In this document: piece after piece, positions 28,707-37,660 of the stretch
Position numbering within the stretch: the first letter of the stretch is position 1
Layout of the letters: each line of letters begins with the position of its first letter
NCBI GenBank assembly: GCA_029248525.1
Contig: JAQWJE010000014.1
Location: 62,001 to 126,000 of the forward strand
Direction of reading: 5' to 3'
Source of the DNA: Candidatus Binatia bacterium
GTDB taxonomy: Bacteria; Desulfobacterota; Binatia; UBA12015
DNA: 64,000 nt
Position numbers and translations under genes: made by a program
The notes under the pieces: model-generated
Databases searched by the model: none
The model's input: only the letters and a program-made list of their open reading frames with translations
What the model was told of the DNA's origin: nothing

Positions 28707-28855
28707 TTCGTTCACCCCTTCGCCGCTGCAGGGGATCATTTTGGCGGCCTCCGCGCAAAGGACCATGAATCGGCCCGCCCTTGGAGTCGGGGTGCTCCAT
28801 TGACGGTCCCCCAGCCTTCCGGCAACAATAGACCGTGAGCCGAGCCAACCCAGCG

Positions 28856-31321
28856 ATGCGAAGTATGATTTTGGGAGCGACCATCGCACTTACCCTGTGC
28901 GGCGGCATCTCGTCCGGCGCTGCCGAGGTGGCCGAGGTGGCCGGCGGAACCGCGGTCCGCAATCCCCACGGGGCAAACCTTGCAGCCGCTGCAGCCGGTG
29001 CGATCGCGAAGTCCGAGTCCCTCTTTCCGCTCGAGTCTGCGGGCGTGCCAATCGAGCCGGGCGTGCAGCTTCTCTACCCGGCTGATCAGACTCTTTTTCC
29101 ACCCGATATCGTCTCCCCGACGTTCCTGTGGCGCCCTGGATTTCCGACAAAAGGCCCCTGGGAGGTCACGGTGATCGACGATTCCGGGCGCCCCTTCGTG
29201 CGCGAGCGTACCGAGCATCCGAAGTGGCTTCCTGAAAGAGATCTCTGGAATGAGATCAAGCGGGTCAGCACCGGACAGAACGTCGAAGTGCGCGTCCGTA
29301 ATCTCGGATCCGGCAGCGGCGAGGATTCCGCAACGGAGACTGCGGCCACATCGTCGACGATCAGAATCAGCACATCGACCGACCCCGTCGGGGATTCGCT
29401 TTTCTACCGCGAAGTCCCTCTGCCCTTCTTGAAGGCAGTTCAGGATCCGTCCAAAATCCGTTGGCGCTACGGCACAATCGACATGGAAGATGGCCCGCCG
29501 ATCGTTCTGGAAAATCTGCCGGTTTGCGGCAATTGCCATTCCTTCGCCGACAATGGCTCGGTGCTGGGACTCGACGTCGACTATGGCAACGACAAGGGCG
29601 GTTACGGCTTGCTGCCGGTGTCCTCCCATATGGTGATGGACGACGAAAGCATCATCTCCTGGTCGGACTACAAACGCGACGATGGTGAGCTGACTTTCGG
29701 ATTGCTCTCGCGCGTTTCGCCCACCGGGCGCTATGTGATCAGTACGGTGAAAGACCGCTCGGTCTTCGTCGCTCGCGACGAGCTCATGATCTCCCAGCTC
29801 TTTTTCCCCATCAAGGGCATTCTTGTCGTGCACGACCGCGAGACGGGCAAGTTTTTTGCCCTGCCGGGCGCCGATGACCCGCGCTACGTGCAGACCAATC
29901 CGGTCTGGAGTCCTGACGGGAAAGAGATCCTCTTCGCCCGTACCGAGGCCCATCCTGACGACAAACTCGATCGCCCCAAGGCAGCTCTGCTGGATTTCAG
30001 CGATGTGCGCGAGTTCACCCGGGACGGCGAACCCTTCCGATACGACCTCTACCGAATCCCCTTCAACGCAGGAGAAGGCGGCACGCCCCTCCCGGTCGAA
30101 GGCGCGTCCGCCAACGGGATGAGCAACTACTTCCCGAAGTACTCACCGGACGGGAAATGGATCGTCTTCACCCAGTCCCGGGACTATATGCTGCTGCGGC
30201 CGGACAGCGAACTTTTCATCATACCGGCAGCCGGAGGACCGGCACGACGGTTGCGGTACAACACGGACCGCATGAACTCGTGGCATAGCTGGTCGTCGAA
30301 CAGTCGTTGGCTGGTATTTTCGTCCAAACAAAACGGGCCCTACACCCAGATGTGGCTCACGCATATTGACGCCGAAGGCAACGATACGCCGCCGGTGGTG
30401 CTGGACCGCTTCACGGACAGCGATCGAGCCGCCAACATTCCCGAGTTCGTCAATCTTCCCGGCGATGCGATCGCGGAGATTCGCGAAGAGTTCCTCGACC
30501 CGTACTCCTTTCTTCGTGCGGGTACGGCAAACGAGCGCACCGGCGACTACGTCGGCGCCGAACGAGCCTTTCGACGCGGGCTCGGGATCGCCCCCGAAGA
30601 CCCCGACCTGCGCAACTCGCTGGGTTGGACCCTTTTCCAGACCGAGCGAACGCCAGAGGCGCTTATCGAGTACCGACGAGCCCTCAAGGCGGATCCCGAC
30701 CACTCTCGCGCCCACAATAACCTGGCGCTCGCGCTTTTGGAGTTGGGGAACTTCACGGAGGCACTACGGCACCTGCAGCAATCGGCTCAGCTGGAGCCCC
30801 GCTGCGAGGTTTTCGCTGACCTCGGGCTGCTTCAGGACCAGCTCGGGCGAGAGGATCTGGCCCGGGAAAGCTACGAGAAGGCTTTTGCTCTCGGCGACAT
30901 CTGTCCGCAACCCCGCATGAATCTAGCCTCGATGCTCATGGAGGACGGCGCGTACGAAGAGGCGGTGGTCCACTACCGAAAGGCTGTTGCCATCAAGCCC
31001 GGGGCTCAGGCCTATACCGGCTTGGGATTTGCTCTCGACCAACTTGGGCAGTCCGACGAAGCAACAGCCGCTCATGAGAGCGCGGTCGCACTCGACCCCC
31101 AACTCGAGCAGGCACATCGGAATCTTGCACTGAACCATGCGCGAAAAAATCAGCTGGAGAAGGCCGTCGTTTCCTACCAGCGAGCCATCGCCTTGAACCC
31201 GCGGGTCTCGACCTATTATTCGCTCGCGGGAGTCCTGCGCGCACTCGGACGCGAAAAAGAGGCCGAGATCGAGTACGACAACGCCCGAGCCCTCTCGAAA
31301 CGACAACCACAAGCCTCTTAG
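28856..31321 (+). CDS. Secreted PD40 propeller/TPR protein with a CxxCH motif
   Basis: An 821-residue product from ATG 28856 (GTG 28835 is possible). A signal peptide is seen at residues 1-28. Residues 50-215 resemble an extracellular beta-sandwich. CGNCH at residues 224-228 is a c-type haem-binding motif inside the block LPVCGNCHSFADNGSVLGLD. A TolB/PD40-like beta-propeller follows (TNPVWSPDGKEILFA, FPKYSPDGKWIVFTQS) to about residue 540. At least seven TPRs fill residues 555-815. Similar single-CxxCH/TolB/TPR fusions are known from other phyla, but their function is not. It should act in the periplasm or outside the cell. Confidence 0.85.
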   Translation: MRSMILGATIALTLCGGISSGAAEVAEVAGGTAVRNPHGANLAAAAAGAIAKSESLFPLESAGVPIEPGVQLLYPADQTLFPPDIVSPTFLWRPGFPTKGPWEVTVIDDSGRPFVRERTEHPKWLPERDLWNEIKRVSTGQNVEVRVRNLGSGSGEDSATETAATSSTIRISTSTDPVGDSLFYREVPLPFLKAVQDPSKIRWRYGTIDMEDGPPIVLENLPVCGNCHSFADNGSVLGLDVDYGNDKGGYGLLPVSSHMVMDDESIISWSDYKRDDGELTFGLLSRVSPTGRYVISTVKDRSVFVARDELMISQLFFPIKGILVVHDRETGKFFALPGADDPRYVQTNPVWSPDGKEILFARTEAHPDDKLDRPKAALLDFSDVREFTRDGEPFRYDLYRIPFNAGEGGTPLPVEGASANGMSNYFPKYSPDGKWIVFTQSRDYMLLRPDSELFIIPAAGGPARRLRYNTDRMNSWHSWSSNSRWLVFSSKQNGPYTQMWLTHIDAEGNDTPPVVLDRFTDSDRAANIPEFVNLPGDAIAEIREEFLDPYSFLRAGTANERTGDYVGAERAFRRGLGIAPEDPDLRNSLGWTLFQTERTPEALIEYRRALKADPDHSRAHNNLALALLELGNFTEALRHLQQSAQLEPRCEVFADLGLLQDQLGREDLARESYEKAFALGDICPQPRMNLASMLMEDGAYEEAVVHYRKAVAIKPGAQAYTGLGFALDQLGQSDEATAAHESAVALDPQLEQAHRNLALNHARKNQLEKAVVSYQRAIALNPRVSTYYSLAGVLRALGREKEAEIEYDNARALSKRQPQAS

Positions 31322-31399: not shown

Positions 31400-32533
31400 T
31401 TGAGAATGATGATGCGGATGTTGGCGCTTGTGACGGTTCTCCTTTTTTCCAGTAGCTGCGGTGACAGCGACGGTGGTGGTAATACCATCACCGTGAACCC
31501 GGGCGAGTCCCTGCAGGAAGCTGTCGATGCCGCGCCTGCAGGCAGTCGGATTCTGGTGAATCCGGGTACCTACGTAGCGTCGCACAACGGCCAGGCTGCG
31601 GTTCTGATCGAGAAATCCCTGCACCTGATCGCCAATGTGGTCGACGGCGAGACGGCGATTATCGTCCCCGGCCCCGGCAACACCGAAGGCATTCTGGTTC
31701 AGGGCACCGAAGACGCATTCGTCGAAGATGTCGTCATCCGCAATTTCAGCATTCAGGGTTTTGAGGAGAACGGAATCTGGACCCGTTACGTGGATGGATT
31801 CGAGATCACGGACAACGATGTTGGCGACAGCGACCATGTCGGAATTTACCCGACGCTCTCGGCTAACGGTCTCGTGCGTGACAATATCGCGTACGGCGGC
31901 ACCGACAGTGCACTCTGGGTGACAGGGGCCGAAGATATTCGCGTCATCAACAACACCGTGCATACCTCGCCCACGGGCCTCGAAGTCACTGTTTCGGAAC
32001 GCATCGAGATGGTCGAGAACGTCGCCTACAACAACGTCGTCGGGATCGGTCTCTACCACGATAACGACGCAGGCATTAACCCCGAGGACGGATTGGGGTA
32101 CCAGGGATTGACCGGTCTGGTCGCCCGCAACAACGTCTACAACAACAATCTGCAGAACCCGGCGACCGGCGGCGTCGTTGCCGACCTGCCCACCGGCCTC
32201 GGCATTCTGGTTCTTGGAAATGATGGGGCCGATATTCAGGACAATACCGTAACCGACAACGGGTTTGCCGGGCTGGTTCTGATCGACTGGTGTCTGGCCA
32301 CCGAGCGCGAAGATGACGACTGCAAACCCGACGACGTTCGGATCGTCGGAAATACGGTGACGGGCAACGGCACCAATCCGCCCGAGCACCCCTTCGCCGG
32401 GCTCGCCAGTGACGTCATCGTGCTCAGTGCCGGCGAGCGCAATTGCATGGCCGACAATACCTATGGGACGACGCTCACCCCGGCCGAGGTTGATGCGATC
32501 ACCGAACCAAGCTGCCCGCCGGTGGGTGGGTAA
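31400..32533 (+). CDS. Right-handed parallel beta-helix lipoprotein
   Basis: A 377-residue protein. A signal peptide ends in the lipobox FSSSC, with Asp at +3 of the lipidated Cys (CGDS), which hints at inner-membrane retention by the E. coli rule. Pectate-lyase-like repeats run through the protein (NPGTYVASHNGQAAVLIE, ENGIWTRYVDGFEITDND, IRVINNTVHTSPTGLEV, ADIQDNTVTDNGFAGLVL), giving a NosD/PbH1-type helix. Members bind or cleave polysaccharides or act as surface scaffolds. No catalytic residues were identified. It lies 78 bp after the PD40-TPR gene, possibly co-transcribed. Confidence 0.82.
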   Translation: MRMMMRMLALVTVLLFSSSCGDSDGGGNTITVNPGESLQEAVDAAPAGSRILVNPGTYVASHNGQAAVLIEKSLHLIANVVDGETAIIVPGPGNTEGILVQGTEDAFVEDVVIRNFSIQGFEENGIWTRYVDGFEITDNDVGDSDHVGIYPTLSANGLVRDNIAYGGTDSALWVTGAEDIRVINNTVHTSPTGLEVTVSERIEMVENVAYNNVVGIGLYHDNDAGINPEDGLGYQGLTGLVARNNVYNNNLQNPATGGVVADLPTGLGILVLGNDGADIQDNTVTDNGFAGLVLIDWCLATEREDDDCKPDDVRIVGNTVTGNGTNPPEHPFAGLASDVIVLSAGERNCMADNTYGTTLTPAEVDAITEPSCPPVGG

Positions 32534-34138: not shown

Positions 34139-35005
34139 GTGCCCGAGGGACCTGAAACCAGACGTGCAGCCGACAGATTGGCGCGGGTCCTTGTTACAGA
34201 TCAAACCGTGGAGCTCAACTTCCCTCACCCGAATCTAACGCCGTGGCGCGACGAGCTGGCCCAGAGCCGGATCCTCGAGGTGACCAGCCGGGGCAAAGCC
34301 CTCCTGATTCGCTTCGAGAACGGGCTGACTTTTTACAGCCACAGCCAGCTATACGGCCGTTGGACCGTGCAGCGCCGCGACAGGGTATTCAAAACCGGGC
34401 GAAGCCTCCGAGCCGAGTTCCTGACCCCCACCCACACGGCACGTCTCTGGTCGGCTACCGAAGTTCGTGTCCTCTCCCCGGGAGAGGAAGCTACCGACCC
34501 TTTCCTCAGCAAATTGGGCCCCGACGTTCTCGATACGTCCAGCACGCCCCGGCGCTTACTCGCGCAGCTCGATAAACACGCCCGAAAGTCAGGCGCGCAT
34601 ATGATGCTGGATCAAAGTGTTTTCGCGGGATTGGGTAACTACCTGCGTTCCGAGATCCTGTTTGAAGCCGGCGTGTATCCAGACGACCGACCCATCGACC
34701 TCGAGCCCGAACAAAGACTAAAATGGGCGCAGGCGATCCGCCGTGTCACTCGCCGGGCCTACCGAGAGGCAGGCGTCACCGTGCCAGCCGCAGTCGCGAA
34801 GCAAGGGAAATCAGCTGGCGAACCCCGGCGCACCTGGAGGCATTGGGTATTTTGCCGCAACGACAAAGCTTGCCGGGTATGCAACACAACGATCGAGAGG
34901 CGGCGTTATGGGGGCCGGCGCCTCGACTTCTGTCCGACCTGCCAACCCGCCCGGCGATTAGCCGACAAAAAAACCAAATCCGGAAAACCGCGGAGGGCGA
35001 ATTGA
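34139..35005 (+). CDS. nei: Endonuclease VIII (Nei) DNA glycosylase
   Basis: A 288-residue product starting at GTG 34139 and giving the essential N-terminal MPEGPE, with Pro2 the Schiff-base nucleophile and Glu3. The block TRGKALLIRF-like SRGKALLIRFENGLTFYSHS resembles E. coli Nei closely, as do QLYGRW and the H2TH region LDQSVFAGLGNYLRSEILF. A C-terminal zinc finger with CRVC and CPTC is complete. It excises oxidised pyrimidines and nicks the abasic site. Its TGA overlaps the TTG start of the photolyase gene, so the two repair genes are coupled. Confidence 0.93.
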   Translation: MPEGPETRRAADRLARVLVTDQTVELNFPHPNLTPWRDELAQSRILEVTSRGKALLIRFENGLTFYSHSQLYGRWTVQRRDRVFKTGRSLRAEFLTPTHTARLWSATEVRVLSPGEEATDPFLSKLGPDVLDTSSTPRRLLAQLDKHARKSGAHMMLDQSVFAGLGNYLRSEILFEAGVYPDDRPIDLEPEQRLKWAQAIRRVTRRAYREAGVTVPAAVAKQGKSAGEPRRTWRHWVFCRNDKACRVCNTTIERRRYGGRRLDFCPTCQPARRLADKKTKSGKPRRAN

Positions 35006-36534
35006 GAACACTCGCCCTGATCCTCGGTGATCAGCTCGACCCTCGCTACCTTGAGGCACTCGAATTGAAGCGAGACCGAGACTGTCTCCTCATGGTCGAA
35101 AGCCGACCTTCCTCGGAGCAACCTGCGAGCCATATCCAACGGTCCGCCCTATTCCTCTCGGCCATGCGTCATTATGCTCGCGACCGCATCAAGGAGGGCT
35201 GGAGCGTGATCTACCGCGACCTGAGGCATCCGGCGGCCCACGGTTCGATCACAGCCGCCATTCCGGATGCAATATCCGAAAGCGGAGCCAACGCTGTCGC
35301 CAGTATCCAGCCGGGATCCTGGGCGACCTTGCGTTCCCTCGAGGCAGCGTGCGGCAAGGCTGGCATACCCCTCCGAATCGAGGATGACTCCCATTTCCTC
35401 TCTACCCCCGAAGAGTTCGAGAGCTGGGCCGAGGGAAGAAAAACTTTGGTCATGGAGTATTTCTATCGAGAGCAACGCCGGCGGCATGACGTCCTTGTCG
35501 ATGAAAACGGAAAACCCGAAGGAGGGAGCTGGAATTTCGACAAGGAAAATCGCAAAAATTTTCGCTCGGCCCCCGAGGTTGCTCCGCGCCTGCGTTTTCG
35601 ACCCGACAAGATCACCAAGGAGGTCCTCGGCGACCTGGGCGAGTTGTTGCCCGAGCTGCCGGGCTCTGCAGCAAACTTCTGCTGGCCGGTCACGAGGCGT
35701 CAGTCACTGCGCCTTCTGGACGATTTTGTGAACCATCACCTGGCTTCTTTTGGCGATTATCAGGACGCCATGTGGAGCGGTGAGGATACCCTGCACCACT
35801 CGCTGCTTGCCGCGGCCCTCAATCTCAAATTGCTCGACCCGCGTGAGGTGATCGCCGCCGCCATCGAGGCCTGGAAGATCGGTTCAGCACCCCTGAATGC
35901 GGTTGAGGGATTCGTGCGACAAATACTCGGATGGCGCGAATTCATTCGTGGAATCTACTTTTTTGCCGGCGAGGATTACTCCCAACTGAATGCAATGCAG
36001 GAGACCGGAGCGCTGCCTGAATTTTACTGGGACGCGAATACGGATATGGCTTGCCTTGCCGATGCGCTGCGTAGCGTTCACGACAATGCCTACGGCCACC
36101 ACATCGAACGGCTGATGGTCACAGGCAATTTTGCGATGATGGCCGGGGTCGAGCCGCAACAAGTTCTCGACTGGTATCTCGGCATGTACGCCGATGCTGT
36201 GGAGTGGGTCACCACGCCCAACACCATCGGTATGGCCCTTCATGCAGACGGAGGACTGGTCGGCAGCAAGCCCTACGCGGCCAGTGGCCGCTATATCCAC
36301 CGAATGAGCAATCATTGCAGCGGTTGCCGTTACGACCCCAAGGCACGTCAGGGCGAGGACGCCTGCCCATTCACCGTGTTCTTTTGGGACTTTCTCGCCA
36401 GACATGAAGGCAACTTCCGCAAAAACCCCCGCATGTCGATGATGCTTCGGAACCTCGACCGGATCGAACCGGCAGAAATCGAGGGAATACGTACCCAGGC
36501 CCGCACGCTGAGAACACGCTTCGGGGTCGCATAG
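35002..36534 (+). CDS. Iron-sulfur cryptochrome/photolyase (FeS-BCP, PhrB-type)
   Basis: The product is 510 residues from TTG 35002, which follows GGAGG and overlaps the nei stop (ATTGA). It is the CryPro/FeS-BCP class: the N-terminus LALILGDQLDPRYL is typical, and four cysteines match the 4Fe-4S ligands, one in DMACLADALR and three in SNHCSGCRYD and EDACPF. The FAD region includes HIERLMVTGNFAMMAGV, WVTTPNTIGMALHADGG and KPYAASGRYIHRM. Characterised members repair (6-4) photoproducts and carry a lumazine antenna. A longer frame to 34723 overlaps nei and is not homologous. Confidence 0.93.
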   Translation: MRTLALILGDQLDPRYLEALELKRDRDCLLMVESRPSSEQPASHIQRSALFLSAMRHYARDRIKEGWSVIYRDLRHPAAHGSITAAIPDAISESGANAVASIQPGSWATLRSLEAACGKAGIPLRIEDDSHFLSTPEEFESWAEGRKTLVMEYFYREQRRRHDVLVDENGKPEGGSWNFDKENRKNFRSAPEVAPRLRFRPDKITKEVLGDLGELLPELPGSAANFCWPVTRRQSLRLLDDFVNHHLASFGDYQDAMWSGEDTLHHSLLAAALNLKLLDPREVIAAAIEAWKIGSAPLNAVEGFVRQILGWREFIRGIYFFAGEDYSQLNAMQETGALPEFYWDANTDMACLADALRSVHDNAYGHHIERLMVTGNFAMMAGVEPQQVLDWYLGMYADAVEWVTTPNTIGMALHADGGLVGSKPYAASGRYIHRMSNHCSGCRYDPKARQGEDACPFTVFFWDFLARHEGNFRKNPRMSMMLRNLDRIEPAEIEGIRTQARTLRTRFGVA

Positions 36535-36766: not shown

Positions 36767-37660
36767 ATGATAAAGTTTTGGAAACACTCGTTGTTGGCGG
36801 TGGCTTTGGTCGTCGGTACTGTCGCTTGCGGAGACTCGACAAAGCCGGCGCCCGAGCCGAATATCGTCGAGGTCGCACGCGCAGCAGGCGACTTTACAGT
36901 TCTGGTCGGCGCCCTCGAGGCAACTGGTCTGGACGAGACTCTCTCCGGAGACGGCCCCTTCACCGTATTCGCGCCTACAGATAATGCGTTTGCACTTCTT
37001 CCCGAAGGCTTGGTTGGCTCCCTGTCCACATCGGAACTGTCCGGCCTTCTAGCCTACCACGTCGTGGCAGGTGCGGTTGATGCCGCGACCGTTGTGACGC
37101 TGACGGAAGCAACCTCCGTGGAAGGTAGCCCGATCTTTATTCAGGTAGAAAATGGTACCGTCGTTCTCGATGGCCGAGTTCAAGTGATCGTCACGGATAT
37201 TCAAGCCTCCAACGGAATCATTCATGTCGTCGATGCCGTCATGGTGCCCGGGAATGCATTTCCCAGCACGATCGTTGGCACCCTGGCTGCCTCGCCTCGT
37301 TTCGCGGCCCTCGTGGACGCAGTAGTGGTGGGAGAACTCGCCGAAGCGCTGAGCAGCGACAATGGCGGGCTCGGATTCACCCTGTTCGCACCTACGAATG
37401 ATGCTTTCGAGGCATTGGGACCCGTCGACCTCACGCTTGAGCAGCTTCAGGCAGTTCTACTCTATCATGCAGCAAGCGGAGAGGTTCCGGCGGAAGTCAT
37501 CGTCACCCTCTCGTCGGTCGAGACCCTCGAAGGTAGCGACGTGAGCATTGAAGTCGAAGGCAATGCTGTGATCCTGAACGGTTCCGCCCGAGTCGAGTGG
37601 GTCAATCTTCAGACCACCAACGGCATCGTCCACGTGATCAGTGAAGTCCTGATTCCGTAA
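36767..37660 (+). CDS. Two-domain fasciclin (FAS1) lipoprotein
   Basis: A 297-residue protein. The signal peptide has lipobox TVAC followed by GDS. Two FAS1 domains follow at about residues 32-160 and 163-297. Each has the H1 motif (DGPFTVFAPTDNAFALLP and LGFTLFAPTNDAFEALG), the central YH (LLAYHVV, LLYHAAS) and the H2 motif (NGIIHVVDAVMVP, NGIVHVISEVLIP). FAS1 domains mediate adhesion to matrix or other cells. Upstream tandem repeats and a separate terminator suggest independent regulation. Confidence 0.93.
   Translation: MIKFWKHSLLAVALVVGTVACGDSTKPAPEPNIVEVARAAGDFTVLVGALEATGLDETLSGDGPFTVFAPTDNAFALLPEGLVGSLSTSELSGLLAYHVVAGAVDAATVVTLTEATSVEGSPIFIQVENGTVVLDGRVQVIVTDIQASNGIIHVVDAVMVPGNAFPSTIVGTLAASPRFAALVDAVVVGELAEALSSDNGGLGFTLFAPTNDAFEALGPVDLTLEQLQAVLLYHAASGEVPAEVIVTLSSVETLEGSDVSIEVEGNAVILNGSARVEWVNLQTTNGIVHVISEVLIP

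Follow-up and report, generated by a model that had tools for sequence, protein, structure and literature searches.

Can a blade of a TolB-type propeller itself carry a c-type haem, and what would such a protein do at the cell envelope? The question is raised by an 821-residue protein encoded in the window, as we call the whole 64,000-nucleotide stretch of Candidatus Binatia DNA that was analysed (contig JAQWJE010000014.1, positions 62,001 to 126,000). An initial annotation, made from the letters and reading frames of the DNA, had described it as an exported fusion of a single haem motif, a propeller and a TPR tail, belonging to a family without a function that could be named.

Architecture and predicted fold of the propeller protein

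The reading frame, its parts and the neighbouring gene that recurs with it are as follows.

28856..31321 including the stop codon (coding to 31318), + strand: CGNCH propeller-TPR protein, 821 aa from an ATG
28856..28930, + strand: N-terminal export signal (approximate), from the sequence; hydrophobic segment 5' of the core
29063..29380, + strand: N-terminal beta domain, residues ~70-175 (AlphaFold2)
29387..30460, + strand: TolB-like six-bladed propeller with the haem motif, residues ~178-535 (PD40; VIA-align)
29525..29539, + strand: CGNCH haem c attachment motif, residues 224-228, blade 1 (C, C and H in 73 of 73 homologues)
30275..30295, + strand: NSWHSWS, residues 474-480, in which H477 is a candidate distal haem ligand (72 of 72 homologues; blade alignment weak)
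30500..31303, + strand: eight TPR repeats, residues 549-816 (Pfam; AlphaFold2)
31400..32533, + strand: probable lipoprotein with a parallel beta-helix (TIGR03805/NosD-like), a neighbour conserved in the cassette (profile match)

An alternative in-frame GTG at 28835 is also a possible start of the propeller protein. Within the best 25 of 30 Pfam matches (E<=1), TPRs (E 2e-35) and TolB-like PD40 repeats (E 1.1e-13) were recognised, which bears out the propeller and long TPR tail of the initial annotation; neither Cytochrom_C nor CBB3 was among them. No NCBIfam family exceeded its cut-off among the matches listed, and the TolB family TIGR02800 was missed at 32.7 bits against a cut-off of 343. The hydrazine synthase alpha families PF18582 (HZS_alpha) and NF052339 were not among the matches listed for the protein (P0001), and genome G000 gave no PF18582 match at E<=1e-8. 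A sequence search of the PDB gave no solved relative, just generic PD40 and TPR matches.

AlphaFold2 modelled the full-length protein at a mean pLDDT of 83.9, with the beta domain and, further on, 16 helices forming the eight TPRs at residues 549-816. As TPR proteins swamped the full-length Foldseek search, the core was folded separately (mean pLDDT 87.9, pTM 0.90). VIA-align of the predicted model matched TolB at Z 28 (~275 residues, rmsd 2.6-2.9) over residues 74-535, and the CxxCH therefore lies inside the TolB-like region, within blade 1, rather than just before the propeller as initially annotated. The top structural match other than TolB was hydrazine synthase alpha (5c2v; Z 23.3, 289 residues), and a Foldseek match to cytochrome cd1 (1dy7_B) was weak, at E 3.5e-6. 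The tail of the CGNCH motif, H-S-F-S-x-D-G, occupies the slot of the blade motif W-S-P-D-G; the longer C-H-S-F-S-x-D-G resembles the W-H-S-W-S-P-N-S at H477, and both replace that blade motif. In a profile self-comparison of the blades, H228 aligned with H477 in the best of the five blade-1 pairs, itself a weak one (E 0.012).

Conservation of the motif and spread of the family

The protein contains five cysteines and, as initially annotated, exactly one CxxCH. A chance origin of this motif was ruled out by its rate in 20,000 shuffles of the protein (0.045%) together with its conservation. In an alignment of 74 rows, one of them a fragment, C224, C227, H228 and R185 are invariant (73 of 73); the widespread loss of CxxCH that the initial annotation had envisaged as counting against its reading was thus not seen. 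The asparagine of C-x-N-C-H is present in 71 of 73 and H477 in 72 of 72, H228 and H477 being the only invariant histidines, and each complete homologue has one CxxCH and no more. In all 66 complete family members, the window protein included, the core follows a hydrophobic N-terminal segment, in agreement with the export first proposed. The host genome also encodes CcmE and CcmC/CcmF-type (Cytochrom_C_asm) proteins. Given the conservation of CxxCH and H477, the N-terminal segment and the Ccm genes, the protein very likely carries a c-type haem. On balance H477, in a later blade, is favoured as the best candidate for its sixth (distal) ligand, and a haem bound by H228 and H477 would lie at the mouth of the propeller.

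A search with the core returned twenty relatives (best-segment identity 47-72%, and one weak PD40 match) on contigs labelled Deltaproteobacteria/Binatia, Planctomycetes, Bacteroidetes and Verrucomicrobia. Whole-genome searches found the propeller in 27 of the 148 genomes taken from the window's class, in 5 of 297 drawn from its phylum, and in 6 of 199 and 5 of 198 genomes from the phyla of loci L021 and L020, respectively; some Planctomycetes have many propeller paralogues. The TPR tail is variable, with two relatives (L029, 583 aa; L030, 546 aa) stopping soon after the core and a set of CLNCH paralogues of ~530 aa being devoid of TPRs. These short paralogues, at ~24% identity, also retain the CxxCH and H477 sites. 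In four loci of Verrucomicrobia, Bacteroidota and Planctomycetes (L159:8708-13411, L139, L140 and L015) a short CxNCH propeller is clustered with a DUF6057 membrane protein and a chorismatase-like gene. A literature search and the curated families yielded nothing that covers the CxxCH propeller-TPR family, in keeping with the initial remark on its function. It is an undescribed architecture in a family across four phyla, which libraries register just as "PD40" and "TPR".

A recurring gene cassette and the window copy

Neighbourhood analysis of homologues, a check suggested with the initial annotation, revealed a cassette that the annotation itself had missed. Its members are a NosD/TIGR03805-like beta-helix protein, a chorismatase-like protein, the CGNCH propeller and a tetrahaem protein with conserved haem motifs. 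Across the 26 loci of the window's class with enough flank, the beta-helix gene is present in 25, the chorismatase-like gene lies immediately upstream of the propeller in 19, and the tetrahaem gene lies downstream of it in 12. Counted apart from these is L118, where a single fused protein combines the tetrahaem part with the beta-helix, tying the two together. Four loci have an additional small protein with one CxxCH. The beta-helix proteins of the class score below curated cut-offs, the one in the window (31400-32533) reaching 82.2 bits against 141.5 for TIGR03805. Many proteins across the class carry the C-terminal domain of the tetrahaem protein, and most matches to the protein were rejected as tetrahaem evidence because they span that domain alone. 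The same domain is found in dozens of otherwise unlike large proteins (genomes G370, G371, G372 and G403).

The chorismatase-like family matches the FkbO/Hyg5 fold (Hyg5, 5ag3; profile E 2.5e-35), and it keeps Hyg5 Cys327 and Glu334, catalytic residues of 3-hydroxybenzoate-forming chorismatases, which correspond to C376 and E383 in the L009 protein. PF21168 scores vary between loci, being over the cut-off in L128 and L020, under it in L124, L139 and L140, and without a match in L015. When the gene was counted at E<=1e-40 in the 148 genomes of the class, 27 had the propeller, 26 the chorismatase-like gene and 24 both (Fisher p 3e-22, a figure overstated by the relatedness of the genomes). Outside the class, the two genes are again paired in members of the Planctomycetes, Bacteroidota and Verrucomicrobia (L015, L128, L139, L140 and L159). 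A chorismatase-like gene with no CGNCH partner can still sit amid haem proteins: in four Planctomycetes loci (L153, L154, L156 and L160, from G304, G308, G613 and G305) it lies a few kb from large HZS_alpha (PF18582) proteins, and in G382, a genome without the CGNCH propeller, its cluster holds an HZS_alpha protein and a ten-CxxCH ExtM-like protein. At L163:5277-8459, a 1060-aa protein with ten CxxCH motifs, related to the selenite/tellurite reduction cytochrome ExtM, adjoins a chorismatase-like gene.

In the tree, the window copy groups with L005-L007 (100/100), on a branch that is nested among chorismatase-adjacent copies and itself has no chorismatase-like gene. Copies with and without an adjacent chorismatase-like gene are both present in G370 and G371. 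Neither a tetrahaem partner nor a complete chorismatase-like gene was found in the window genome; the latter had no match at E<=1e-40 and a single partial one at E 1e-23. For the window copy in its present form, the share of these two genes in the explanation developed below thus falls away. The sole cassette neighbour left beside the window propeller is the beta-helix gene. The ancestral cassette informs function, and the role of the window copy may be reduced or changed. Elsewhere in the window, at 34139-36534, an Fpg/Nei-type DNA glycosylase gene and an overlapping reading frame for a photolyase-related (DPRP) protein form a possible DNA-repair pair, and a probable lipoprotein with two fasciclin domains is encoded at 36767-37660.

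Proposed role of the haem and comparison with known systems

As a whole, the best explanation, which we regard as probable, is that the protein is an envelope monohaem c-type cytochrome acting as the redox subunit of a cytochrome relay. The protein would be extracytoplasmic, either membrane-anchored or secreted, with CGNCH attaching the haem to blade 1 of the TolB-type propeller, on its inner strand. H228 would serve as the proximal ligand and H477, from the equivalent position of a later blade, as the distal one, and the TPR tail could be a docking site for a partner. The relay would be shared with the tetrahaem protein, and the beta-helix protein would be an extracytoplasmic partner; the chorismatase-like enzyme would be cytoplasmic, with a predicted 3-hydroxybenzoate-type product. 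Taken separately, the electron-transfer role is a proposition on which we are evenly balanced. The presence of the chorismatase-like enzyme hints, more doubtfully, at the involvement of an aromatic acid or a derived compound. The fullest version is put forward tentatively: a CxxCH in one blade of a TolB-type propeller, with the second ligand coming from another blade, would be a new way to carry a c-type haem, and the protein would act, by redox or catalysis, on an aromatic compound derived through the chorismatase, in an envelope pathway that spans phyla.

The structural match to hydrazine synthase alpha suggests a different use of the propeller haem, not simply as an electron carrier but as a catalytic centre comparable to haem alphaI of that enzyme, transforming a small molecule such as an aromatic that the chorismatase-like enzyme helps to make. 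The HZS_alpha proteins near chorismatase-like genes in four Planctomycetes, the one in the G382 cluster and the many propeller paralogues of some Planctomycetes all point the same way. However, the protein has no HZS_alpha domain among the matches listed, and its invariant second histidine suggests six-coordination. HZS_alpha domains are also very abundant in some Planctomycetes, through a huge paralogue expansion (84 places in G304, 121 in G306), so their adjacency to chorismatase-like genes may partly be chance and is a lead only; a catalytic haem is in our judgement unlikely. A reading in which the CxxCH serves a structural purpose or binds a metal and no haem is bound would fit the want of a classical cytochrome c domain in the best Pfam matches, and the CxxCH histidine of haem alphaI in hydrazine synthase (His587) does bind zinc, with a tyrosine ligating the haem, yet that motif retains its haem (PMC12607021). 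Full conservation of both cysteines and the histidine, export, the Ccm genes and recurring multihaem neighbours argue against such a reading, which we consider less likely still.

The initial annotation had also offered redox sensing coupled to protein scaffolding. Propeller folds are common in scaffolds, and the TPR tail could recruit partners to a redox or haem-based sensor, but the protein has no signalling domain, and the TPR-less short paralogues keep both the haem motif and H477. The tail is likewise absent from L029 and L030. A sensor or scaffold is the least probable of the readings weighed here. What stands of that proposal is the single c-type haem, strongly supported by conservation, the Ccm genes and the cassette cytochromes, and electron transfer at the envelope, which fits best; for sensing and scaffolding the tail was the one feature found. 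If the relay explanation is true, it would describe a cytochrome fold whose propeller blade itself bears the haem and would unify a family over four phyla. It would also connect chorismatase-like enzymes, hitherto known from secondary metabolism, with cytochromes of the envelope and, perhaps, with HZS-alpha-like proteins, giving a genetic and biochemical entry to an unnamed pathway.

Among known systems, TolB of Tol-Pal has the six-bladed PD40 propeller fold in common with the predicted model, whereas the CxxCH, the TPRs and the low TIGR02800 score set the protein apart. Hydrazine synthase alpha likewise has a propeller within a c-haem protein, but with two haems and a haem motif in the HZS_alpha middle domain, against one haem motif that lies inside the propeller here. 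The short CLNCH propellers found with DUF6057 (PF19529) share the core, CxNCH, SWHS and a nearby chorismatase-like gene, and differ in their missing TPR tail, their divergence and their membrane-protein partner. The chorismatase-like neighbour of the relatives resembles FkbO/Hyg5 in its profile match and in the two retained residues, its activity being a predicted one; class members differ in their N-terminal part and in a CxCxxC insert, and the gene is absent beside the window propeller. Cytochrome cd1 nitrite reductase also has haem in a propeller context; its propeller is eight-bladed, its d1 haem is bound non-covalently, and its cytochrome c domain stands apart. Cytochrome cd1 and hydrazine synthase alpha are thus known examples of c-type haem proteins that contain a propeller, and what is new here is the motif within a TolB-type propeller.
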